Assembly: GCA_030656555.1 (NCBI GenBank)
Contig: JAUSPN010000067.1
Coordinates: 1-42,760, forward strand
DNA length: 42,760 bases
Direction: 5' to 3'
Source: Candidatus Desulfaltia sp.
GTDB lineage: Bacteria; Desulfobacterota; Desulfobacteria; Desulfobacterales; ETH-SRB1
The notes under the pieces were generated by a model. It saw only the letters and a program-made list of their open reading frames with translations, searched no databases and was not told the origin of the DNA. The translations under genes and the position numbers were made by a program. Positions within the stretch are counted from its first letter, which is position 1, and each line of letters opens with the position of its first letter. Shown in pieces: positions 1-11,607 of the stretch.

Positions 1-282
1 CTTAAACACGGAGTCCTGGGATTAGTTATCGCTCTGGTTGAGATCATCAAGGAGGCCCTCAGACTTCAGGCTTTGAAAAGAATGGAGGGAGGAAGTCTTA
101 CCGAAGAAGAGGTTGAGAGGCTCGGGGAAGCCCTGATGGACCTGGATATAGCAATTGAGGAGATAAAAAAAGAGCAGGGGATCACCGAATCGGTCAAATC
201 TGTAAGAGATGGGTTGGATAGTATTGTGGATGATGTGATAGATAAGATAATAAATCCTGAAAGGTGGGAGAAAAAACAGTGA
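1..282 (+). CDS. gvpK: Gas vesicle protein GvpK (3' part)
   Basis: The reading frame is open from base 1, so the gene starts outside the window and only the last 93 codons are present. The visible part reads LKHGVLGLVIALVEIIKEAL, then LRLQALKRMEGGSLTEEEVE and LGEALMDLDIAIEEI. This matches the conserved core and C-terminus of the GvpK family, which is about 110-150 residues long. GvpK is a minor, mostly helical accessory protein needed for gas vesicle formation. It is followed by a 107-base repeat-filled gap and then GvpL/F in the same orientation, so it belongs to the same gvp locus. The TTG at 73 and ATG at 82 are internal codons, not starts, because conserved sequence continues upstream of them. 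Confidence 0.9.
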   Translation, partial: LKHGVLGLVIALVEIIKEALRLQALKRMEGGSLTEEEVERLGEALMDLDIAIEEIKKEQGITESVKSVRDGLDSIVDDVIDKIINPERWEKKQ

Positions 283-341
283 TCAGTGATCAGTGGGCAG
301 TGGGCAGTAGGCAGTGGTCAGTGGGCAGTGATCAGTGATCA
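281..341. repeat. CAGTGAT/CAGTGGG heptamer array
   Basis: Nine or so tandem 7-base units of the forms CAGTGAT, CAGTGGG, CAGTAGG and CAGTGGT begin right at the gvpK stop codon. They resemble the short tandemly repeated repetitive (STRR) sequences known from filamentous cyanobacteria. The phase is 7 bases, so the array shifts reading frame at every unit. It fills the gap between gvpK and the next gene together with the ATGACCA-type array that follows. Confidence 0.85.
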
Positions 342-370
342 GAAGTGACGGATACATGATACAGGATACT

Positions 371-1924: not shown

Positions 1925-3043
1925 ATGGAACCTCAACGCAACACCAACGCAACCCTCGTAGATTTATTAGACCGTGTCCTTGACAAGGGCCTCGTGATCC
2001 ATGCCGATCTGATCGTGTCGGTTGCGGGCATTCCCTTGATCGGCGTCAACCTGAGGGCAGCGTTGGCGGGAATGGAAACCATGCTCAAATATGGTGTGAT
2101 GCAGGCGTGGGATGAGAAGAGCAGGGCGTGGGAGAGAGAACATCGGAAGAAGGCTATCCCTTCTTTGGTTGAAGGAGAAGAGATTGTCCTGAAAATGTAT
2201 GGTTCTTATTACTATAGTAAGGGGATATACGCCGCATGGAAACCGGGCTATTTTTATTTGACTGACAAAAGACTTATTCTTCACCGGCAGGATTTCGATG
2301 AAATCACATTTCAGATACCGTTAGAAGAAATAAAAGCATTGATAATAAAAGAGGAAGAGCATTTTGTTAAAGAGAAACAAAAACAGGTGCTCTATCTTCT
2401 TGACAAACAGGGTCGAGTACATCGGCTCAGTGCGGTGGAAACAAACCGGTTGAAAGACGCTATTGAGCAAAAAATAAAGGATATGGGATTTTATCTCGAA
2501 GAAAATCCCGTTCTTCCGGAGGTTGAAGATGAGCAAATTGCAGGTTCGTTGATGGAGGAGGAAAGAGTTGTTCATCGAGGAAAAAAGGTGTGGTATTTAG
2601 TGCCGGCTGAAGGAATTCAGCAAGAGCCCTGGAGACCGGGCCACCTCTATCTTACTAATAAGAGATTATGCTGGTGGTATGATTTTGAGAAGAAGTTGGT
2701 TTTTGACGTCTCTATTGACCGGATAATCAATGCTATCAGTGATATTAGAAAGGTAAGCGGACTGGACAGCAAAAAAGAGAGGGTTCTTGATATAATATAC
2801 GGGGTTAATTCAACAAGAAAAACAGCTTCTTTTGCCGGAAAGGAAATAGATGAATGGGCAAAGGTGTTGAAGGGTGTCGTGTCAGTCCGAAGTGCGGAGT
2901 TTTTAAGCCCTGAGATGGAGACATGCCCTGAATGCGGAAAAGAAGCGCCGGTTAAAGAACTTTTAGGAAAGGGCTGCTCATATTGTAACTGGGTTAGCCC
3001 GCTTAGAAACAGTAGTCAGTTGCCATTAGTCATTAGTCATTAG
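1925..3043 (+). CDS. GvpA/J-like domain fused to two GRAM/PH-like domains and a zinc ribbon
   Basis: Residues 10-60 match the GvpA/GvpJ/GvpM family: ATLVDLLDRVLDKGLVIHAD, then VSVAGIPLIGVNLRAALAGM and ETMLKYG. After it come two GRAM/bacterial-PH-like modules. Module one covers roughly residues 80-185 (GEEIVLKMYG, GYFYLTDKRLIL, PLEEIKALII). Module two covers roughly 200-320 (GHLYLTNKRLCWWYDF, SIDRIINAISDIRKV). The tail has a CPECG...CSYCNW zinc ribbon (about 338-358). Normal GvpA/J proteins are 70-150 residues, so this 372-residue architecture is unusual. I infer an accessory shell protein or adaptor that sits on or nucleates the gas vesicle and presents PH-fold domains to a partner. There is no obvious Shine-Dalgarno before the ATG at 1925. 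The final residues (SQLPLVISH) and stop come from a heptamer array. Confidence 0.8.
   Translation: MEPQRNTNATLVDLLDRVLDKGLVIHADLIVSVAGIPLIGVNLRAALAGMETMLKYGVMQAWDEKSRAWEREHRKKAIPSLVEGEEIVLKMYGSYYYSKGIYAAWKPGYFYLTDKRLILHRQDFDEITFQIPLEEIKALIIKEEEHFVKEKQKQVLYLLDKQGRVHRLSAVETNRLKDAIEQKIKDMGFYLEENPVLPEVEDEQIAGSLMEEERVVHRGKKVWYLVPAEGIQQEPWRPGHLYLTNKRLCWWYDFEKKLVFDVSIDRIINAISDIRKVSGLDSKKERVLDIIYGVNSTRKTASFAGKEIDEWAKVLKGVVSVRSAEFLSPEMETCPECGKEAPVKELLGKGCSYCNWVSPLRNSSQLPLVISH
3011..3043. repeat. CATTAGT heptamers encoding the gene end
   Basis: Three CATTAGT units encode the last residues and stop codon of the GvpA-GRAM fusion gene. They continue on the far side of the element at 3044-3283, so the array appears to have been split by that insertion. 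Confidence 0.75.
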
Positions 3044-3283
3044 TTGTTAAATGCCACAACATCGTGGACGAATAAATGTGCCATGACATCGTGGACTTGA
3101 GGAAATTTAGACATATTGATTCTAATAAGGTTGTGTAATTCAATTGTGCGCAAGTTATAAACATATATGATGTTTCGTCCAGTAGTGGCCATGATTTCTA
3201 ATGCGCTGTCAGTCATGTTTTTATAGGTTCGTCCACGATGTCGTGGCATTAAAATCTGTCCACGATGTTGTGGCACTCAACAA
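3044..3283. mobile_element. 240-bp MITE-like element with ~53-bp terminal inverted repeats
   Basis: The two ends, 3044-3096 and 3231-3283, are imperfect inverted copies. Each starts TTGTTRARTGCCACAACATC and contains two copies of a CCACRACATCGTGGAC-type palindromic box. The element sits inside a heptamer array and is flanked on both sides by TTAG, which may be a 4-bp target duplication, although TTAG is also part of the repeat. The minus strand is open for 78 codons across almost the whole element (3040-3276); I do not recognise the peptide. The size and structure fit a non-autonomous transposon. No transposase with matching ends is in the window. Confidence 0.7.
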
Positions 3284-3345
3284 TTAGTCATTAGTCATTG
3301 ACCATTGACCATTGACCATTGACTAATGACCACTACCCACTGACA
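3284..3345. repeat. CATTAGT/CATTGAC heptamer array
   Basis: The array continues after the MITE-like element with units CATTAGT, CATTGAC (three times) and then inverted ATGACCA/CCACTGACA-like units. It ends 20 bases before the histidine kinase start. It is the continuation of the array at 3011-3043. Confidence 0.75.
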
Positions 3346-4091: not shown

Positions 4092-4384
4092 ACCAAAGAA
4101 ATTGAAGACCAAAGCAATTGAAGATTGAAGACCAGGGCAATTGAAGATTGAAGATTGAATATTGAAGATTGAAGGAATTCTGTCAATTTTTAAAAAGAAA
4201 CAGAGCGGAGCGATTCCACAAATATACAATATTCAATATACAATATTCAATCCATACGCGATTCCACAAATATTCAATATTCAATATTCAATATTCAATA
4301 TTCTATTTTCAATATTCAATCCATATGGCGATTCCACAAATCTTCAATATACAATATACAATCTTCAATTTAAAGGGGTGATTT
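4092..4384. repeat. Inverted-arm repeat: ATTGAAG array - core - ATTCAAT array
   Basis: This gap has no gene. The left arm is tandem ATTGAAG heptamers with GACCAAAG/GACCAGGG interruptions. The core is GAATTCTGTCAATTTTTAAA followed by ACAGAGCGGAGCGATTCCAC. The right arm is tandem ATATTCA/ATTCAAT units, interrupted by two further copies of GCGATTCCACAAAT. The two arms are complementary, so the RNA could form a long hairpin just before the response regulator start. The same core appears inverted at 5059-5088 and again at 6957-7008. Confidence 0.75.
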
Positions 4385-5005
4385 ATGGCGGAAATAAAAT
4401 ATGATATCAAAAGGGGTGCGGATGTATATAGACTGATCTATCACGCAAGATTAAGGAGTTGGATTCTAAAGGGTGTTATCAAAAGAGGTGAAGCAATTGT
4501 ATGGCGAAGTGGTCTATCGGGTTGGCGTAAACCTGAAGATCTTGAAGAGTTGAAACCTTATTTTAGACAAAAGGACAAAGAGGATTTAAAGAGAAAAAAA
4601 CAAGAAATAAAGCCAGGTCCCTTTCCAAAGAAGCGTATAAAAAATATTTTGATAATAGAGGACGAAGAGGATTTGTGCTGGCTTTTATCTAATACTTTAA
4701 AGGATAAAGGGTATAATGTAATTATTGCCAATACCATAAGTGAGGGCGCAGCCTGTCTAAAGGAATCACTCGATTTGGTATTTTTAGATTTAAAACTGCC
4801 CGACGGTGATGGGATGGATATCCTTCCTAAAATCAAAGAAATAACCTCGGAGACATTGGTAGCCATCATTTCTGCCTATGGTAGTGAAGAAAGAATGGAA
4901 GAAGCAAGGGCCAAAGGAGTCTACAGCTTCATCAACAAGCCATTTACTGAGGAACGCATATTAGATCTTCTATCGCAAATCAGTGGACAGGCAATTGAAG
5001 ATTGA
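4385..5005 (+). CDS. Response regulator with N-terminal GYF-like domain
   Basis: Residues 1-60 resemble a GYF_2-type module, with a W26...G30...G35 pattern and GLSGWRKPEDLEEL. A lysine-rich linker follows, then a receiver domain at about 86-200: acidic pair ED in ILIIEDEEDL, phospho-acceptor Asp135 in VFLDLKLPDGDG, and Lys in FINKPF. There is no DNA-binding output domain, so signalling is probably by protein contact, perhaps through the GYF-like part. The gene follows the histidine kinase at 3366 and has an AAGGGGTG ribosome binding site. The stop codon lies in the first ATTGAAG heptamer of the next array. The GYF assignment is by eye and less certain than the receiver domain. Confidence 0.85.
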   Translation: MAEIKYDIKRGADVYRLIYHARLRSWILKGVIKRGEAIVWRSGLSGWRKPEDLEELKPYFRQKDKEDLKRKKQEIKPGPFPKKRIKNILIIEDEEDLCWLLSNTLKDKGYNVIIANTISEGAACLKESLDLVFLDLKLPDGDGMDILPKIKEITSETLVAIISAYGSEERMEEARAKGVYSFINKPFTEERILDLLSQISGQAIED

Positions 5006-5186
5006 AAATTGAAAATTGAATATTGAAGACCAAAGAAATTGAATATTGAATATTGAATATTTGTGGAATCGCTTCGCTCTGTTTTTTAGTCGAGTGGTCG
5101 AGTGGGAAAGTGGTCGAGTGGTTAACTACTTACTACTCGACTAATTCCCTACTCGACTACTCGACTATTTCCTTCAATATTCAATC
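4990..5186. repeat. ATTGAAG/ATTGAAT array, inverted core and GTCGAGTGG palindrome
   Basis: From the response-regulator stop codon onward there are ATTGAAG, ATTGAAA and ATTGAAT heptamers. Then comes ATTTGTGGAATCGCTTCGCT, which is the reverse complement of the core at 4192-4222. From 5089 there is a second inverted repeat: GTCGAGTGGTCGAGTGGGAA on one side and CTACTCGACTACTCGAC-type units on the other. The gap ends with CTTCAATATTCAAT just before the dnaK-like ribosome binding site. Confidence 0.75.
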
Positions 5187-5199
5187 CCAAAAGGAGAAC

Positions 5200-6909
5200 A
5201 TGACTAAAGCAATCGGCATAGATCTTGGCACTACCTACTCGGTGGCAGCCGTAATAGAAAATGGACGGGCCAAAGTGATTAAAAATGCCGAAGGCGAAAA
5301 TCTAACCCCCTCTGTTTTTGCTGTAACCGGCCTTGGGCAGAGATTGGTCGGATCTGTGGCAAAAAGCCAGGCTTCAGCCAATCTGGAAAAGACAGTCATA
5401 TCCATTAAGAGGCATATGGGCAGCGACTACAGAGTCTCCCTCAATGGCAGAAGCTATTCCCCCCAGGAGATATCCTCCTTTATTTTGCGCAAGATAAAAT
5501 CAGACGCCGAAAAATATCTGGGAGAGCCGGTAGATAAGGCAGTTATTACAGTTCCGGCATATTTCAATGATGGGCAGCGCCAGGCAACCAAAGAGGCCGG
5601 AATTATGGCCGGCTTTGATGTGATGAGAATAATCAATGAGCCTACAGCAGCCGCTCTGGCCTATGGGCTGGATCGAGAAGAAATCCAGACAATTCTTGTA
5701 TGGGATCTTGGAGGCGGAACATTTGATGTGTCAATTCTGGAGCTTGGAGATGGTCTCTTTCATGTAAAGGCTGTAAACGGCAACACCAGGCTTGGCGGCG
5801 ATGACTGGGATGAAAGGATAGTCGATTATCTAACTGAAAAAATATTAAATGAACATGGGTTTGATATAAAATCAGATAAAATTGCACTTCAGCATCTAAA
5901 AGAGGTCAGTGAAAAGGCCAAGAGAGAACTTTCTTACGGGCAGACTGCTAAAATTCCCCTTAATTTTATCAAAACAAATGGTAGCCGTTTAAAAGACCTG
6001 GAGACCTCGATTGATCGGGAAATGTTTGAGGACATAACTGCGGACTTAAGGGAAAAACTTCTCGGTCCCACACGGCAGGCTTTATCCGATGCCGGACTGT
6101 CTCCGGATGGTATTGATAGAATTGTGCTGGTTGGAGGCTCTACCCGGATGCCGTCTATTAGACATCTCGCGGAAGAAACTTTTCATAAAAAACCATACGT
6201 CAAGGTCAACCCCGATGAAGTGGTAGCTATTGGAGCGGCTATTCAGGCCGGCGTTTTAATGGGTGAAATTAACGATGTCGTACTTGTAGATGTAACGCCT
6301 CTTTCTTTAGGGATTGAGACAGAGGGTGGCCTTTTTGCAAAGATCATTCCTCGCAATTCTACTATCCCTACATCTGCAGGGCAAATTTTCACCAATGCTG
6401 AGGACAATCAAACCGTGATGGACTTCCATGCCCTTCAGGGTGAACGGGAGGTAGCGGCAGATAATATCAGCCTGGGGCAATTCCAGTTGACCGATATTCC
6501 CTCCCTGCCCAGGGGAAAGGCACAGGTGGAGGTTACCTTTGAGATCGATGTAAACGGAATAGTCAAAGTCTCTGCCCAGGAGCTATACACCGAAGAACAG
6601 ACCGGTATAAGGATTGACGCTTCACACCTTTTGAGTGATGAGCAGGTCGAGGAGGCGGTGAAGGAAGCTGAAGCCTTTGCCGAAGAGGATATGGAAAGAC
6701 GCACAGAAATAGAAATTAATATCCAGGCCGACAGCATGATCCGGGCAGCCGAATTATTCATAGAGGAGACAAGGGAAAAGCTTTCAACTTCTTATCTGTA
6801 CGTAATTGAGTCTGCCGTATTGGACCTGAAATCAGCCTTAGCCGAAGGTGAAAGCACTGTCGTCGAAAATAAGACCAAAGGGCTGAGGAAGTTATTGGAC
6901 AAAATATAG
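5200..6909 (+). CDS. Hsp70/DnaK-family chaperone, short form
   Basis: The protein is an ATP-dependent Hsp70. Signatures are IGIDLGTTYSVAAV, VWDLGGGTFDVSIL, ITVPAYFNDGQRQATK and IVLVGGSTRMP in the nucleotide-binding domain. A substrate-binding domain follows, with VTPLSLGIETEGG. I chose ATG 5200 because it has an AAGGAG site and begins at the conserved MTKAIGIDLG; the open frame upstream to 5053 is repeat-derived. At 569 residues it is about 70 shorter than canonical DnaK and lacks the long disordered tail. No grpE or dnaJ is adjacent, so it is probably a dedicated second Hsp70 working with the gas vesicle locus rather than the main DnaK. Confidence 0.92.
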   Translation: MTKAIGIDLGTTYSVAAVIENGRAKVIKNAEGENLTPSVFAVTGLGQRLVGSVAKSQASANLEKTVISIKRHMGSDYRVSLNGRSYSPQEISSFILRKIKSDAEKYLGEPVDKAVITVPAYFNDGQRQATKEAGIMAGFDVMRIINEPTAAALAYGLDREEIQTILVWDLGGGTFDVSILELGDGLFHVKAVNGNTRLGGDDWDERIVDYLTEKILNEHGFDIKSDKIALQHLKEVSEKAKRELSYGQTAKIPLNFIKTNGSRLKDLETSIDREMFEDITADLREKLLGPTRQALSDAGLSPDGIDRIVLVGGSTRMPSIRHLAEETFHKKPYVKVNPDEVVAIGAAIQAGVLMGEINDVVLVDVTPLSLGIETEGGLFAKIIPRNSTIPTSAGQIFTNAEDNQTVMDFHALQGEREVAADNISLGQFQLTDIPSLPRGKAQVEVTFEIDVNGIVKVSAQELYTEEQTGIRIDASHLLSDEQVEEAVKEAEAFAEEDMERRTEIEINIQADSMIRAAELFIEETREKLSTSYLYVIESAVLDLKSALAEGESTVVENKTKGLRKLLDKI

Positions 6910-6921
6910 TGGACAGGGATA

Positions 6922-7034
6922 AAATTGAAGATTGAAGATTGAAGAATGAATATTGAAGGAATTCCGCCAATTTTTTAAAAAAACAGAGCGTAGCGATTTC
7001 CGCAAATCTTCAATCTTCAATCGACAATATTCAA
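6922..7034. repeat. ATTGAAG array - core - CTTCAAT array
   Basis: Third copy of the inverted-arm element: ATTGAAG heptamers, then GAATTCCGCCAATTTTTT and ACAGAGCGTAGCGATTTCCG, then TCTTCAATCTTCAATCGACA as the opposite arm. It lies between the Hsp70 gene and the Hsp20-like gene. Core differences from the copy at 4173-4222 are few and scattered, so the copies are diverged but clearly homologous. Confidence 0.75.
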
Positions 7035-7046
7035 TTGATAAACGTT

Positions 7047-8027
7047 ATGCGAATGACTTCTCAAAAAATCAATATCCCCGTGCTTCAATCAGGGGAGAAT
7101 ATCATATTACAGGGCAAGGGGGCATATAAGAATACTTTTCGCTCCGGCTGGAAGATTGCCGATTGCTTTCTGACTAATCAAAGGGTCGTGATCAAGCAGG
7201 GGGCAAATGTCCGTTTAGGAATTTCGACTAAGGATATCACTCAGTTAAGGGTGGAAAAGCTTCATTATGTTATAAAAAAGAAAGAGGCTCTCTCTCTTTT
7301 TTATAAGAGCGGCAAGGATTCGAAGGAATGCAGGATCTGGCTTGTCACACAAGATCTGGAAAACTGGAAAAAAAGAATCTATCAGCTCACTCTACTGAAG
7401 ATTGATGCTGATCTGATTGAAAAAATAGCCGTTCAATTGGATTCTGAAGGCCGGGATATTCTGAGGTTTCTTTGGGAGAATCGTCACGCCAGGATCGACC
7501 GGTTGGCTGAGCTTATCAATGCCCCAAATCATATGCATGTTCTTCTGAACATTAAGGAGACGATCAATCCCATAGCAGAAAAGGTTGCCGGATGTCCGAT
7601 TCTCTCTTTTGAAAGGTCAAAAACAGACCCGGAAACCGGAGAAAAAGTCTTATTTAGTTGGTGGCTGTTAGGGGAGCCTGAGGAATGGGACAATAAAAAT
7701 GAACGTCTTTTGGATATATTTGATGAAGGCTCTTACATACAGGTAATTATGGAAGTGAAAAAGGTAGAGAAATCCGATTTGAGTTTAGAGATTAATGGAA
7801 CTGAACTTATAGTCAAATCCAGCAAAACAGGGGCCAAATGGACAGAAACATTTCATTTGCCTGCTGAAGCGAATTACAATAACCACCGGATCCACCTGAG
7901 AAACAATTTGTTGGAAATAAGATTGTCCAAGGTCCAAGGTCCAGGGGACAGGGGTCAGTGGACAGTGATCAGTGTGGTCAGCAAAACGAGTAACACCCCC
8001 CTAAATCCCCCCTTGAGGGGGGACTAA
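7047..8027 (+). CDS. GRAM-like / winged-helix-like / Hsp20 (GvpH-like) protein
   Basis: Three parts are visible. Residues 1-115 look like a GRAM/PH-like domain (GENIILQGKGAYKNTF, DCFLTNQRVVIKQG, STKDITQLRVEKLHYV). The middle part at about 125-215 looks like a winged helix (EGRDILRFLWENRHARIDRL, FSWWLLGEP). Residues 225-310 are an alpha-crystallin/Hsp20 domain (FDEGSYIQVIMEVKKVEKSD, NGTELIVKSS, HLPAEAN, LRNNLLEIRLSK). Hsp20 proteins called GvpH occur in haloarchaeal gas vesicle loci, so a chaperone role in vesicle assembly is likely. The last 20 residues (to NTPLNPPLRGD) are encoded by heptamers and a G/C palindrome, not by family sequence. ATG 7047 was chosen over TTG 7035; neither has a strong ribosome binding site. 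Confidence 0.75.
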   Translation: MRMTSQKINIPVLQSGENIILQGKGAYKNTFRSGWKIADCFLTNQRVVIKQGANVRLGISTKDITQLRVEKLHYVIKKKEALSLFYKSGKDSKECRIWLVTQDLENWKKRIYQLTLLKIDADLIEKIAVQLDSEGRDILRFLWENRHARIDRLAELINAPNHMHVLLNIKETINPIAEKVAGCPILSFERSKTDPETGEKVLFSWWLLGEPEEWDNKNERLLDIFDEGSYIQVIMEVKKVEKSDLSLEINGTELIVKSSKTGAKWTETFHLPAEANYNNHRIHLRNNLLEIRLSKVQGPGDRGQWTVISVVSKTSNTPLNPPLRGD

Positions 8028-8039
8028 GGGGGGTGTTAA
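7992..8039. repeat. G/C palindrome (AACACCCCCCTAAATCCCCC type)
   Basis: A near-perfect 48-bp inverted repeat whose arms are AACACCCCCCTAAATCCCCC and its complement around CTTGAG. It covers the last codons of the Hsp20-like gene and extends past the stop. It would form a very stable hairpin. Copies occur at 8334-8381, 9420-9556, 10229-10334 and 11758-11867. Confidence 0.85.
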
Positions 8040-8077
8040 CCAGCAACCAGCAACTACCAACGAACAACCAATGACAA

Positions 8078-10504
8078 ATGACTAATAAAGTTCCTGAATA
8101 TTTTCAAAACAAAGAGCTTCGCCTTATTCTTTTCGGCGGCAAGGGCGGAGTGGGCAAGACAACCATGGCTGCGGCTGCGGCCCTTCATCTTGCCCAAACA
8201 TATCGCAACGAAAAGAATGTCCTGGTTATATCTACCGATCCCGCCCATTCTTTGGGGGACAGCTTTGGAATAGAGCTGGGGGACGAGGTAACTTCAGTGG
8301 TCAGTGGTCAGGGGGCAGTGACCAGCAACGAGCAACACCCCCCTAAATCCCCCCTTGAGGGGGGACTAAGGGGGGTGTTAACGAGCAACAATCAACAATC
8401 AATGACTAATGACCAATGTCCAATGACTAATTTATACGCGCGCGAGCTGGATGCGGTCAAACTGGGGAACGAGTTTAAACAGAGAAATGGAGCTGTAATC
8501 AAGAAACTTGCAGACAGGGGAACATACTTTGACCGGCAGGACATTACCGAGTTTTTTAATCTTTCACTTCCAGGGATGGATGAGGTCATGGCCATCATCG
8601 AGATAGCCGATATTTTGAGAGAGGGGATCTATGATGTCCTGATACTCGACACCGCTCCCACCGGCCACACGGTGCGGATGCTCAGCCTTCCCGAACAGAT
8701 GCTGAAATGGATTGAATTCATGGACTTGATGCAGCAAAAGCACAGATTCATGGCAGTTCATTTTACCGGCAAAAAATACGTGAAAGATGAGTGTGATCTT
8801 TTCATCGATAAACTCACTTCTGATATTAAGCGTGTCAAAAAGCTGCTTTCGAACGAGCAGACAACCCGCTTTGTGCCGGTAACTATTCCTGAGCCGATGG
8901 CGACATCTGAGACGAAGAGGTTGTTAAGCGCTCTAAAGAGAAATAATATTCCAGTGACGGATATTATTGTCAACCGTGTAGCGGATGCTCATGAATGTGC
9001 ATTTTGCGCGTCAAAGCAAGAGGATCAAAGACAGCCTTTGTCCGAGATCCAAGAGAGTTTTTCTCAATATGGTTTGATCAAAGTTTCGTTGTTTCCTAAT
9101 GAAATCCGAGGTGTGGAAGGACTGAAAGGTCTGGCCGATTATCTTATGGGAATATCCAGACCACATGAACTCCCTAAGGCTGTTGTCAGTGTTGAGGAAA
9201 CCCAGGCCTGTTTAGCTCTTGATCCCAACCTGGAATTTGTTCTCTTCGGCGGTAAAGGCGGGGTAGGCAAGACGTCTCTGGCTTCTGCCGCCGCCCTTCA
9301 TCTGGCACGATGCAATCCGGATAAAAACATACTTATTTTCTGCACAGATCCCGCTCATTCACTCTCCGATTCATTTAAACTAACTATCGGGGATAAAATT
9401 ACACAGATAGACTGGTCACAACACCCCCCTAAATCCCCCCTCAAGGGGGGACTAGGAGGGGTATCCCCCATTGAGGGGGGACTAGGAGGGGTATCCCCCA
9501 TTGAGGGGGGACTAGGAGGGGTATCCCCCATTGAGGGGGGACTAAGGGGGGTGTTAACGAGCAACGAGCAACCAGCAATGACTAATGACCAATGTCCAAT
9601 GACTAATGACCCCGCCCGCCTCGCAAGCGAGAGCGTTGCGGGCAGGCAATCCCCAATGACTAATGACCAATGTCCAGTGACCAATCTTTTTGCCTTGGAG
9701 ATAAATGCGGATAAGTTGTTTGAAGATTTTAAGCAGGATTTCAAACAAGAGATAGAAGAGATATTTGACAAATTTCTTGGTGGTGGCGTTGATATAAAAT
9801 TCGACCGCGAGGTCATGACGGAACTTTTAACCCTTGCACCCCCCGGCCTTGATGAGATCATGGCTCTGGATAAGATCATGGACCTGAGAAAGGAAGGAAA
9901 ATTTGACATCTTTGTCCTCGACACGTCGCCTACCGGCCATCTTCTTCGCTTTTTGGAGCTTCCCGATATGGTGAGGGAATGGTTAAATGCATTTTTTAGA
10001 TTATTATTGAAATACAAAGGGGTGGTCAGGATGGCCAAGGCCGCTGAAAAGGCTTTAGCCATGTCCAAAAATGTCAGAAGAATTCAGGAAGCCTTTATGG
10101 ATCGCAATAGAACGAATTTTGTAGCAATCACTATTCCCGAGGCCATGGGATTGCTTGAGCTGGAGCGGCTTGTAAGCGCTTTGGATAATGCAAAGATCCA
10201 TTGCGGCAACATTATAGTTAACATGGTTAACACCCCCCTTAGTCCCCCCTCAAAGGGGGATACCCCCCTTAGTCCCCCCTCAAAGGGGGATACCCCCCTT
10301 AGTCCCCCCTCAAAGGGGGATTTAGGGGGGTGTTGTAATTTTTGTTTGTCCAAAAGGGTTGAGCAGACAGGATATATCAAAAAAATCCATTCGATATTTC
10401 CTTCCAGAACAATAACAAAGGTGCCGATGTTTCCCCATGAGGTGCGGGGAATAGATGATCTGCACAAAATAGGCGAGATCATTTTTTGTAATGGAGAATT
10501 CTAA
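8078..10504 (+). CDS. Tandem ArsA/Get3-type ATPase with repeat-derived inserts
   Basis: This 808-residue protein has two ArsA/Get3 halves. Half one has P-loop FGGKGGVGKTT (residues 19-29), switch II DTAPTGHT and CAFC. Half two has FGGKGGVGKTS (about 390-400), DTSPTGHLLRFL and CNFC. The CxxC pairs match the zinc-binding pair of Get3-like proteins. No arsB/arsR genes are nearby, so arsenite export is unlikely; delivery of membrane or shell proteins, as for Get3, fits the gas vesicle context better. Three in-frame inserts are repeat-derived: residues about 73-120, 447-535 and 717-753. They encode peptides such as HPPKSPLEGGLRGV, SPIEGGLGGV (three times) and TPLSPPSKGD (three times). The start codon lies in a heptamer array with no clear ribosome binding site. 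The stop overlaps the next ATG (TAATG). Confidence 0.88.
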   Translation: MTNKVPEYFQNKELRLILFGGKGGVGKTTMAAAAALHLAQTYRNEKNVLVISTDPAHSLGDSFGIELGDEVTSVVSGQGAVTSNEQHPPKSPLEGGLRGVLTSNNQQSMTNDQCPMTNLYARELDAVKLGNEFKQRNGAVIKKLADRGTYFDRQDITEFFNLSLPGMDEVMAIIEIADILREGIYDVLILDTAPTGHTVRMLSLPEQMLKWIEFMDLMQQKHRFMAVHFTGKKYVKDECDLFIDKLTSDIKRVKKLLSNEQTTRFVPVTIPEPMATSETKRLLSALKRNNIPVTDIIVNRVADAHECAFCASKQEDQRQPLSEIQESFSQYGLIKVSLFPNEIRGVEGLKGLADYLMGISRPHELPKAVVSVEETQACLALDPNLEFVLFGGKGGVGKTSLASAAALHLARCNPDKNILIFCTDPAHSLSDSFKLTIGDKITQIDWSQHPPKSPLKGGLGGVSPIEGGLGGVSPIEGGLGGVSPIEGGLRGVLTSNEQPAMTNDQCPMTNDPARLASESVAGRQSPMTNDQCPVTNLFALEINADKLFEDFKQDFKQEIEEIFDKFLGGGVDIKFDREVMTELLTLAPPGLDEIMALDKIMDLRKEGKFDIFVLDTSPTGHLLRFLELPDMVREWLNAFFRLLLKYKGVVRMAKAAEKALAMSKNVRRIQEAFMDRNRTNFVAITIPEAMGLLELERLVSALDNAKIHCGNIIVNMVNTPLSPPSKGDTPLSPPSKGDTPLSPPSKGDLGGCCNFCLSKRVEQTGYIKKIHSIFPSRTITKVPMFPHEVRGIDDLHKIGEIIFCNGEF
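8290..8435 (+). repeat. In-frame repeat block 1 in the ArsA-like gene
   Basis: The block has CAGTGGT heptamers, then the 48-bp G/C palindrome (8334-8381), then CAATCAA and ATGACTA/ATGACCA heptamers. It lies after the first-half sequence GIELGDEV and before LYAREL, a point that is a surface loop in ArsA/Get3 folds. The reading frame is kept throughout. Confidence 0.85.
9420..9685 (+). repeat. In-frame repeat block 2 in the ArsA-like gene (30-bp tandem palindromes plus heptamers)
   Basis: The G/C palindrome is extended by three tandem 30-bp units (CCCCCATTGAGGGGGGACTA with GGAGGGGTAT), each encoding SPIEGGLGGV. A heptamer array follows, then an inverted CGCCCGCCTCGCAAGCGAGA segment at about 9612, then more heptamers. 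The position in the second half (after DKITQIDW, before LFALEI) is equivalent to block 1 in the first half. Confidence 0.9.
10229..10334 (+). repeat. In-frame repeat block 3 in the ArsA-like gene
   Basis: Three tandem 30-bp units (ACCCCCCTTAGTCCCCCCTC with AAAGGGGGAT) encode TPLSPPSKGD three times and end with TTTAGGGGGGTGTT. The block lies immediately before the CNFC zinc-binding-like motif of the second half. It is the opposite strand orientation of block 2. Confidence 0.9.
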
Positions 10505-11607
10505 TGTCCCAAAAAGTAACCTATGAAAAACTGGAAGAGCGTATTAAAGAACGCACCGCCGAACTTGCAAAAGCCAATGAAAAACTCCGGCTTGAAATCA
10601 TTGAGCGCAAGCTGGCGGAGGAAAAAATCAGATCAGCCCATGCAGAGTTAAATCAGATCTTTGATGCTATTCCCGGTGGTATTTGTTTGATCGATAAAAA
10701 TTTTAATGTGTTCAAAGCTAATAAATGGATATCGACTCTATGCGGCACACCTGTTGATGAAACAACAGACAAGAAGTGCTATGAAACATTTTCAAGTAAT
10801 ATATGTAATACGCCCGAGTGTGTTTTGACTAAAATTCTTGGCGGCGAAGAATACATTACAATGGAGGTGGAAAAGAAATGCATCAATGGCAAGAAAATTC
10901 CCTGTATTTTATCAGCAACACCCTATTATACGCATGATGGCGAGCTTGTCGGTATAATTGAGAATCTAACTGACATTACCACACGCAAGAACTATGAGAA
11001 TGAACTTAAGGATAGCCTTAGGGAGTTGCGTAAATCCTTGCGTGGAACTATCCGGGCTATGGCATTGACAGTTGAAGCCAGAGATCCATACACATCCGGC
11101 CATCAACAGCGTGTTGCTGATCTGGCCCGTGCCATAGCAAAAGAAATGGGTTTTTCAAGAGATAAAACAACGGGGATTCGTATGGCCGGGGCGCTTCATG
11201 ATATTGGTAAGATAGCAATACCTGTGGAGATTCTCAGCAAGCCCAGTCAATTAAACGGAATGGAATTTGAACTTATTAAAGAGCACCCTCAAGTCGGTTA
11301 CGATATATTGAAGCCAATAAAATTTCCATGGCCTGTTGCTCAAATTATTTTTCAACATCACGAAAGGATGGATGGTTCCGGATATCCTCAAGGTCTATCG
11401 GGTGAAGAAATTCTAATTGAAGCCAGAATCCTGGGTGTAGCTGATGTTGTTGAAGCCATGGCTTCGCACCGGCCATACAGACCTGCTCTTGGTATTGATA
11501 AAGCCTTAGAAGAGATCTCAATTAATAGAGGAAAGCTTTATGATGTTGAGGCAGTAAATGCGTGTTTGAAGGTTTTTAAAGAGAACGGGTTTAAATTTAA
11601 GATATAA
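10504..11607 (+). CDS. PAS domain HD-GYP phosphodiesterase-like protein
   Basis: The start overlaps the ArsA stop by one base (TAATG), so the two genes are translationally coupled. Residues 1-45 are a coiled coil. A PAS domain follows at about 48-165 and carries a Cys-rich insertion (KKCYETFSSNICNTPECVL) seen in many anaerobe PAS domains. An HD-GYP domain covers about 180-367, with HDIGKIAIP and HHERMDGSGYPQG. HD-GYP proteins hydrolyse cyclic di-GMP, so this gene may link redox or ligand sensing to buoyancy versus attachment. There is no membrane segment. It appears to be the last gene of the gvp locus. Confidence 0.92.
   Translation: MSQKVTYEKLEERIKERTAELAKANEKLRLEIIERKLAEEKIRSAHAELNQIFDAIPGGICLIDKNFNVFKANKWISTLCGTPVDETTDKKCYETFSSNICNTPECVLTKILGGEEYITMEVEKKCINGKKIPCILSATPYYTHDGELVGIIENLTDITTRKNYENELKDSLRELRKSLRGTIRAMALTVEARDPYTSGHQQRVADLARAIAKEMGFSRDKTTGIRMAGALHDIGKIAIPVEILSKPSQLNGMEFELIKEHPQVGYDILKPIKFPWPVAQIIFQHHERMDGSGYPQGLSGEEILIEARILGVADVVEAMASHRPYRPALGIDKALEEISINRGKLYDVEAVNACLKVFKENGFKFKI

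Follow-up and report, generated by a model that had tools for sequence, protein, structure and literature searches.

In a 42,760-nucleotide stretch of Candidatus Desulfaltia sp. (assembly GCA_030656555.1, contig JAUSPN010000067.1; hereafter the window), the open reading frame at 1925–3043 on the forward strand, read from an ATG start, encodes a 372-residue protein. It joins a gas vesicle shell domain of the GvpM type to two predicted pleckstrin homology (PH) folds and a C-terminal zinc ribbon. The gene lies in a gas vesicle protein (gvp) locus, its PH domains are under purifying selection, related fusions are widely conserved in Bacteria and Archaea, and a related PH domain is carried by an Hsp20-type protein encoded nearby. 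The interpretation that we favor, tentatively, is that the fusion is a seeding subunit of the GvpM/GvpS type whose C-terminal tail could offer a docking platform in the cytosol, with the PH-bearing Hsp20-type protein as the probable partner. As far as the literature was searched, the fusion is a widespread, apparently undescribed variant of a known protein type.

Domain organization of the fusion protein

The shell domain comprises residues 1–67 (1925–2125; all parts of the protein lie on the forward strand). Its core at residues 10–48 (1952–2068) matches the shell family PF00741 in a Pfam scan with an E-value of 1.3e-16 and 60.9 bits, the cut-off being 25. Among the NCBIfam models, GvpM (NF046091) aligns over 67 of its 67 positions with 96.6 bits (4.9e-28, under the model's cut-off), compared to 51.5 bits (7.8e-14) for GvpJ and 44 bits for GvpA, and by score the shell domain classifies as GvpM type, not GvpJ. 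A preliminary description of this DNA, made from the letters alone, had assigned residues 10–60 to a GvpA/J-like domain; the shell family was borne out by the profile search, while the type and the extent, to about residue 67, had to be revised. The NF046091 model is of the kind 'exception' and is named for haloarchaea, and since the score lies under its cut-off, the label 'GvpM-type' is used here without a named equivalog. Two unfused relatives (L132 and L140) likewise stay below this cut-off, with 100.6 and 105 bits, and GvpM is the best NCBIfam match, again under the cut-off, in all three distant fusions scanned (from Streptomyces, Clostridium and Methanothrix). The motifs RAAIA and EYGL are described as confined to J and M proteins (PMC8716928; here and below, published statements refer to excerpts of the papers cited). 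Close variants of both are present in the fusion, RAALA at residues 44–48 and KYGV at residues 55–58; in an alignment of 56 rows, the former position reads (R/K)-x-A-x-A in 55 rows and strictly R-A-A-x-A in 38. The protein thus resembles haloarchaeal GvpM (NF046091) and Bacillus GvpS in its full 67-position shell, its J/M motif, its homology to GvpA and its place beside gvpK and gvpF/L. However, GvpM of Hbt. salinarum is a stand-alone protein of 84 residues (PMC9501494), whereas the 372-residue fusion continues into two PH domains and a ribbon.

The first of these domains, PH1 (residues 79–186; 2159–2482), is a GRAM/Vps36-GLUE-like PH fold that scores above the cut-off of two Pfam families: Vps36_ESCRT-II, of PH/GLUE type, at residues 79–158 (2.5e-7, 31.2 bits, cut-off 24.1) and GRAM at residues 81–139 (8e-6, 26.1 bits, cut-off 23.6). 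PH2 (residues 206–326; 2540–2902) and PH1 match each other in BLASTP at 1e-6. In an AlphaFold2 model built on the 56-row alignment, both modules are predicted to form seven strands capped by a C-terminal helix, as expected for a PH fold, with strands at 87–170 and the helix at 173–186 in PH1, and strands at 215–305 and the helix at 308–326 in PH2. The ten-residue means of the predicted local distance difference test (pLDDT) are 77–97 and 91–97, respectively. The model as a whole has a mean pLDDT of 83.2 and a predicted template modelling score of 0.59, because of which the arrangement of the domains is unsure, and the shell part is poorly modelled, with residues 22–41 below a pLDDT of 50. The folds were compared with VIA-align, run on the top 1000 Foldseek matches. 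PH1 superimposes on the PH domain of TAPP1 (Z 12.9, root mean square deviation (rmsd) 2.4 over 98 residues), on the GLUE domain of EAP45/Vps36 (2hth; Z 12.7, 3.1 over 106) and on MTMR2 (1lw3; Z 12.4, 2.9 over 109), and PH2 on the PH domain of Sin1 (3voq; Z 12.4, 3.8 over 100). No gas vesicle protein title occurs among the 50 PDB rows listed in this comparison. The best whole-model matches in Foldseek (BBS5 and others) have TM-scores of about 0.2–0.3 with high rmsd, and as model comparisons they mirror only the tandem order of the PH domains. The two PH- or GRAM-like modules read from the letters in the preliminary description are thus recovered as folds in the structure prediction, and neither this model nor the PF00741 match contradicts that description.

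The phosphoinositide-binding motif of PH domains reads K-Xn-(K/R)-X-R. At residue 108 of PH1 and residue 239 of PH2, which we take to be the third position of this motif, glycine is found in 54 of 56 and 41 of 43 rows, so that the canonical motif is lost at this position in both domains. In this the fusion differs from the PH-fold families PF02893, PF11605 and PF14470, which it resembles in fold, in the Vps36_ESCRT-II and GRAM matches above cut-off and in VIA Z-scores of 12–13. The loss is relevant to the ligand rather than to the fold; PH folds without the canonical motif are also able to bind lipid. Basic residues are kept close by, with R or K at residue 106 in 55 of 56 rows and R116 in 52 of 56, and G100 and W105 of PH1 are invariant in all 56 rows.

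The protein ends in the zinc ribbon CPECG..CSYC (residues 330–358; 2912–2998), which consists of two CxxC knuckles (C334, C337, C351 and C354). All four cysteines are kept in each of the 38 alignment rows, out of 56, that cover this region, which upholds the ribbon as originally read, although the Pfam family Zn_ribbon_3 matches below its cut-off (0.034, 14.1 bits versus 27). A degenerate 7-bp tandem repeat at 3013–3044 overlaps the 3' end of the open reading frame and encodes its last residues.

Distribution and evolution

The genome_contigs scan with a query derived from the fusions returned 127 relatives, the best 80 of which yielded 79 loci (L065–L143). Fused genes are found in 70 of the 79, 51 with two PH domains and 19 with one, while nine are unfused; as the query was made from fusions and the best 80 of 127 relatives were taken, this is no prevalence figure. 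The PH, shell, ribbon and neighbor calls outside the window come from profiles built from these loci themselves. The count is one of loci and not of genomes; L083 and L084 share a bin, and so do L142 and L143. Some loci recur between searches (L065 = L025/L054, L070 = L018, L077 = L019, L105 = L056) and were counted only as L065–L143. The shell of L088 is cut by the contig end, and a second, shorter fusion frame in L085 was left out of the counts; in that locus, the frames 5412–5915 (shell–PH) and 5704–6168 (PH) overlap beside the full-length fusion and are possibly a broken second copy. The 70 fused genes comprise 35 of shell–PH–PH–ribbon, 16 of shell–PH–PH, 13 of shell–PH and 6 of shell–PH–ribbon architecture. 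They fall under 13 phylum names, two of them archaeal, taken from the ranks in NCBI record titles, many of which are metagenome bins; five of the 70 are unranked. The fusion is far more widespread than one window could reveal. A sample of 395 genomes drawn evenly across the phylum contained 36 with a profile match, at least six of which hold a fusion, own genome included in both counts; up to five candidates were scored per genome, and the number of fusions is a lower bound. Besides the own genome, the fusions of this sample carry two PH domains in G165 and one in G327, G285, G329 and G441. A phage origin was rejected, as a single viral_contigs scan gave 90 pattern matches and no relative.

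In the surrounding DNA available, another gvp gene or a J-ribbon gene accompanies the fusion in 67 of the 70 loci. The remaining three, L071, L078 and L088, have ArsA or DnaK plus a PH or PH-Hsp20 gene. The neighbors are GvpF/L in 66 loci, GvpK in 62, J-ribbon in 59, ArsA in 31, CDC48 in 30 and DnaK in 29. The nearest upstream profile match is GvpF/L (33 loci), a J-ribbon gene (14) or a PH gene (12), and since it varies between GvpF/L and J-ribbon, the gene orders J-K-L-M and, as in Streptomyces, J-M-K-L both occur. In the J-ribbon proteins (mostly 114–136 residues), the same CPxC...CxxCGW ribbon as in the fusion comes after a shell domain, but PH domains are absent, and the one protein that was scanned (L081:2416–2769) matches GvpJ best. 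A GvpJ identity of the fusion itself was rejected on the score and on the presence of this separate gene. The same type of ribbon also occurs in small double-zinc-ribbon proteins (L072:8228–8533, L077:7879–8286 and L066:1300–1797), and is thus found on three kinds of protein of the gvp locus. A further conserved gvp-locus protein of about 230 residues (L066:6069–6785 and relatives; cluster 9, 23 loci) has a weak TraB/PrgY match in Pfam, below cut-off.

The history of the PH domains was followed in a tree of 148 domains (174 before 12 near-duplicate loci were dropped) and 118 columns, with 62 of 145 inner branches open. Forty PH2 domains form one side of a starred branch (Shimodaira–Hasegawa-like approximate likelihood ratio test 99), the M-borne PH domains part from the other PH domains with one change, and the one-PH forms intermingle with PH1 of the two-PH forms. 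The simplest reading of these sequences would be one PH capture and one duplication, followed by several losses or transfers of PH2. This scenario is favored because PH2 is one-sided and the one-PH forms mix with PH1, and for the same reasons repeated late fusion fits worse. Against the nearest relative (L065), the ratio of nonsynonymous to synonymous change, calculated with our own Nei–Gojobori script, is 0.034 for the shell, 0.11 for PH1, 0.29 for PH2 and 0.17 for the ribbon; PH1 and PH2 are under purifying selection. Compared to the window protein, the shell has a median identity of 76 percent, PH1 of 41 and PH2 of 39. Taken together, the spread over Bacteria and Archaea and a PH tree that fits one capture suggest that the fusion is a stable, selected assembly variant and no curiosity. 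Synonymous differences are proportionally more frequent in the shell than in PH1 (0.547 versus 0.367 for L065, 0.862 versus 0.473 for L066, 0.91 versus 0.465 for L076), which may hint at recombination within the fusion gene.

A candidate docking tail on a putative seeding subunit

The window encodes a second PH protein at 7035–8027 (forward strand), in which a PH domain (residues 12–120) and a winged helix precede an Hsp20-like part (residues 219–301). Its PH domain is missed by Pfam and detected by our own profiles, AlphaFold2 and VIA, with a Z-score of 13.6 and an rmsd of 2.3 over 98 residues for residues 11–120. AlphaFold2 predicts strands at 23–105 and a helix at 108–119, then helices and a wing, and further strands at 226–299. 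The Hsp20 part matches Pfam HSP20 with 14 bits against a cut-off of 20.8 and NF041800 at 5.1e-12, also below cut-off, and the VIA rows for this protein mostly cover residues 12–214, outside that part. Genes for hsp20 and ArsA are known from gvp operons (PMC2963123). As an Hsp20-type protein of a gvp locus, the product of 7035–8027 resembles the GvpH/Hsp20 proteins of gvp clusters, but differs by the PH domain and winged helix ahead of the Hsp20 part, which go unmentioned in the excerpt of that paper.

Such a PH-Hsp20 gene is present in 26 of the 70 fused loci, a separate PH gene in 19, and either of them in 39, compared to 1 of the 9 unfused loci (Fisher's exact P = 0.014, kinship ignored). 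In most Clostridia-type loci, the separate PH gene immediately precedes the M gene, with which it overlaps. In addition, 390 genomes were searched with a PH alignment made from gvp loci, with up to 11 candidates scored per genome. Of the 14 matches below 1e-15, 13 belong to fusions or to PH-Hsp20 genes that share a contig with a fusion, and the other is a PH-Hsp20 gene in G193 whose gvp context was not checked; five matches were weaker. The PH pair of the fusion may therefore be a dock for PH-bearing helpers in seeding, and the glycine at the third motif position together with the related PH domains on Hsp20-type and small proteins points to docking between proteins.

Seeding is regarded as the least understood step of gas vesicle assembly (PMC11445434). 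In Bacillus, GvpS, GvpK and GvpJ are proposed to form the vesicle seed, with GvpS and GvpJ perhaps at the tips; all GvpS fusions permit vesicles while no GvpA2 fusion does (PMC11445434), and GvpS is related to GvpM (PMC11445434; PMC9501494). In haloarchaea, a C-terminal fragment of 25 residues of GvpM contacts GvpF, GvpH and GvpL; the form of GvpM that GvpH selects is the monomer (PMC7688916; PMC8716928). The tail of the fusion starts where haloarchaeal GvpM has its helper-binding region, on a subunit that tolerates fusions. In the mechanism that we propose, the fusion would belong to the J-K-L-M seeding module as a minor shell subunit. Its shell domain would be incorporated into the nascent vesicle, and the PH–PH–ribbon tail would face the cytosol as a docking platform. 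The likeliest partner would be the PH-bearing Hsp20-type protein or, where present, the small separate PH protein; this partner may hold the shell domain, which is prone to aggregation, in solution and hand it over to the GvpL/GvpK/GvpJ seed. The idea that the protein could nucleate vesicles, raised in the preliminary description, fits the GvpM/GvpS assignment.

Several observations weigh against this proposal. Full-length haloarchaeal GvpM bound only GvpL in split green fluorescent protein assays (PMC7688916), its last 25 residues are dispensable for vesicles (PMC8716928), and the equivalence of the Hsp20-type protein to haloarchaeal GvpH is presumed. No separate PH protein is seen in the surrounding DNA of 31 of the 70 fused loci, including 13 of 13 from Streptomyces. 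Conversely, L141 has the PH-Hsp20 gene and an unfused GvpM, and the separate PH genes of L081, which reaches the contig end, and L085, which overlaps the shorter fusion frame, may be fragments. The GvpM score of the shell falls short of the curated NCBIfam cut-off of 109 bits, and RefSeq names the Streptomyces plasmid copy of the fusion GvpJ. A Pfam family of PH type exceeds its cut-off in only two of seven fusions scanned (the window and L094); it stays below in L074, L103 and L109, and none is found in L119 and L129. The Streptomyces copy L119 is accordingly without PH by Pfam, though our own profile detects one, and the PH calls in the remaining fusions rest on the profiles built in this analysis.

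The PH domains could instead recognize lipid head groups or a membrane protein, which would position the vesicle seed at the membrane; we consider this unlikely. The lipid binders among the closest solved folds (TAPP1 PH, MTMR2), the conserved basic residues 106 and 116 and the frequent use of tandem PH domains in membrane recruitment all speak for such a tether. However, the same set of folds includes a protein binder, the EAP45 GLUE domain, which was solved for ubiquitin recognition, and a related PH domain is found on the Hsp20-type protein. The glycine at the third motif position also argues against a tether, even if PH domains without the motif may bind lipid. A link of vesicles to a membrane, as offered in the preliminary description, is therefore less well supported.

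The PH–PH–ribbon tail might also lack a specific partner and act by bulk, keeping the shell soluble or capping rib growth at the tip. The lower identity of the PH domains compared to the shell, the absence of PH2 or the ribbon from many members (13 shell–PH, 16 shell–PH–PH and 6 shell–PH–ribbon forms) and the formation of vesicles with all GvpS fusions (PMC11445434) are compatible with such a spacer. Purifying selection on both PH domains, the invariant G100 and W105 (which may be structural) and the related PH domain on a locus partner all point to a specific surface and make a spacer improbable. Still less probable is a hub in which the PH domains and the shared ribbon bind GvpF/L, GvpJ, DnaK or ArsA, not the Hsp20-type protein specifically. 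The ribbon type is common to the J protein and the small double-ribbon protein of these loci, DnaK and ArsA occur in 29 and 31 of the 70 fused loci, and the C-terminal fragment of haloarchaeal GvpM contacts GvpF and GvpL (PMC8716928). However, DnaK and ArsA are each seen in fewer than half of the fused loci, many of which are cut at contig ends, and neither looks like a general partner. Finally, a chance frame or wrongly joined genes is hardly conceivable. As the orthologue L077 lacks the ribbon, the C-terminus varies. However, the same architecture occurs in 70 loci, many of which come from metagenome assemblies and others from named isolates, and it is shared by a RefSeq-annotated gene on a Streptomyces plasmid. 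The 70 fused loci rule out a one-gene oddity or chance frame.

The preliminary description knew of no precedent for the architecture, and in the open-licence literature no description of a shell–PH fusion was found among the matches listed. In PMC8620254, the one pleckstrin match, gas vesicle and pleckstrin terms occur in unrelated places, and for Hakubella a gvpM with neighboring hsp20 is reported, the fusion being unnamed in the excerpt (PMC7325909). The public record nevertheless carries such a fusion protein under a plain gas vesicle name. A natural GvpM-type protein with folded domains offers a means of isolating, labelling and imaging the seed and singles out partners for testing. Furthermore, the tail indicates a natural position at which cargo or targeting modules might be fused in engineered gas vesicles.

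Gas vesicle loci of the window, its genome and Streptomyces

On the forward strand of the window, GvpK (1–282, cut by the window start) is called by an open reading frame and our own profile, one member of which is PF05121 GvpK. It is followed by GvpF/L (390–1472), which matches PF06386 at residues 110–360 (1.6e-69) and NF045778 GvpL with 201.7 bits (cut-off 200) and has about 109 extra N-terminal residues. With GvpF/L supported by Pfam and GvpK by our own profile upstream, the placement of the fusion inside a gvp locus holds. A 23S-IVP four-helix-bundle gene (1539–1910) lies between GvpF/L and the fusion; such genes between gvpF/L and the gvpM fusion also occur in L069, L070, L075, L077, L079, L092 and L105. 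The order is thus GvpK, GvpF/L, IVP gene and fusion, and any J would precede the window start. Histidine kinase and response regulator genes separate the fusion from DnaK/Hsp70 (5053–6909, forward; PF00012, 2e-199), and the PH-Hsp20 gene is followed by a double ArsA/Get3-type ATPase (8078–10504, forward; PF02374, 2.1e-131).

In the own genome, PF00741 matches only the fusion and a 68-residue GvpA-like gene on another contig, 1.7 kb from the contig start, adjoined by a repeat protein that resembles GvpC and is putatively one. One GvpF/L is present, and no GvpN scores over cut-off in this genome. As the window starts at a contig start, an assembly gap likely accounts for the missing gvp genes, although true absence is possible and the completeness of the assembly is given as 100. 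No match was found in six genomes belonging to the same genus, in which the locus is therefore patchy. Among 58 near genomes, four matched, own included, and two of the others hold a fusion, complete in G056 and without ribbon in G037. On one contig, G037 has J, K, F/L, M, DnaK, PH-Hsp20, ArsA, GvpN, GvpG, GvpO, a CDC48-type ATPase and a GvpA-like gene. The orthologue L077:10001–11005 has 334 residues with both PH domains and no ribbon.

All 13 Streptomyces loci (L115, L117, L119–L122, L124, L126–L128, L130, L131 and L134) consist of a J-ribbon gene, an M fusion with two PH domains and no ribbon, GvpK and GvpF/L. In their flanks, up to 10 kb per side and shorter on one side in some (e.g. L120, L122), neither GvpN, GvpG, GvpO, DnaK, ArsA or CDC48 nor a stand-alone gvpA was found. 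The RefSeq-annotated plasmid copy confirms the four-gene cassette, its genes being named 'gas vesicle protein' (J), 'GvpJ' (the fusion), 'gas vesicle protein K' and 'GvpL/GvpF'. In L168, the J-M-K-L cassette (8007–10600), likewise with no further gvp genes in the DNA around it, lies a few kb from annotated genes for a SapB/AmfS-type lanthipeptide and for lanKC. It was considered whether the hosts lack other shell genes, and this was rejected on the PF00741 counts. Five of five Streptomyces genomes searched, other contigs included, have PF00741 genes beyond the J and M pair, and all 19 genomes examined for 20 cassette loci (L115 left out) match PF00741, 18 exceeding the pair by count; the exception is G460, with two matches in a 1.5 Mb assembly. 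It is conceivable, if doubtful, that J, M–PH–PH, K and L are a portable seed cassette that sets where and when a vesicle starts, with the tail sensing a local cue such as a chaperone, a membrane site or a polar landmark. If so, the Streptomyces cassette could seed vesicles in trans, or it could produce a structure related to, but distinct from, a classic gas vesicle.

Degenerate 7-bp tandem repeats also occupy many intergenic gaps of the window (277–342, 1478–1514, 1889–1922, 3296–3332, 4140–4369, 4994–5061 and 6924–6958). The ArsA open reading frame holds 30-bp tandem repeats at 9433–9552 (4.0 copies) and 10232–10321 (3.0 copies), and its product has 808 residues compared to 671 in the relative L019.

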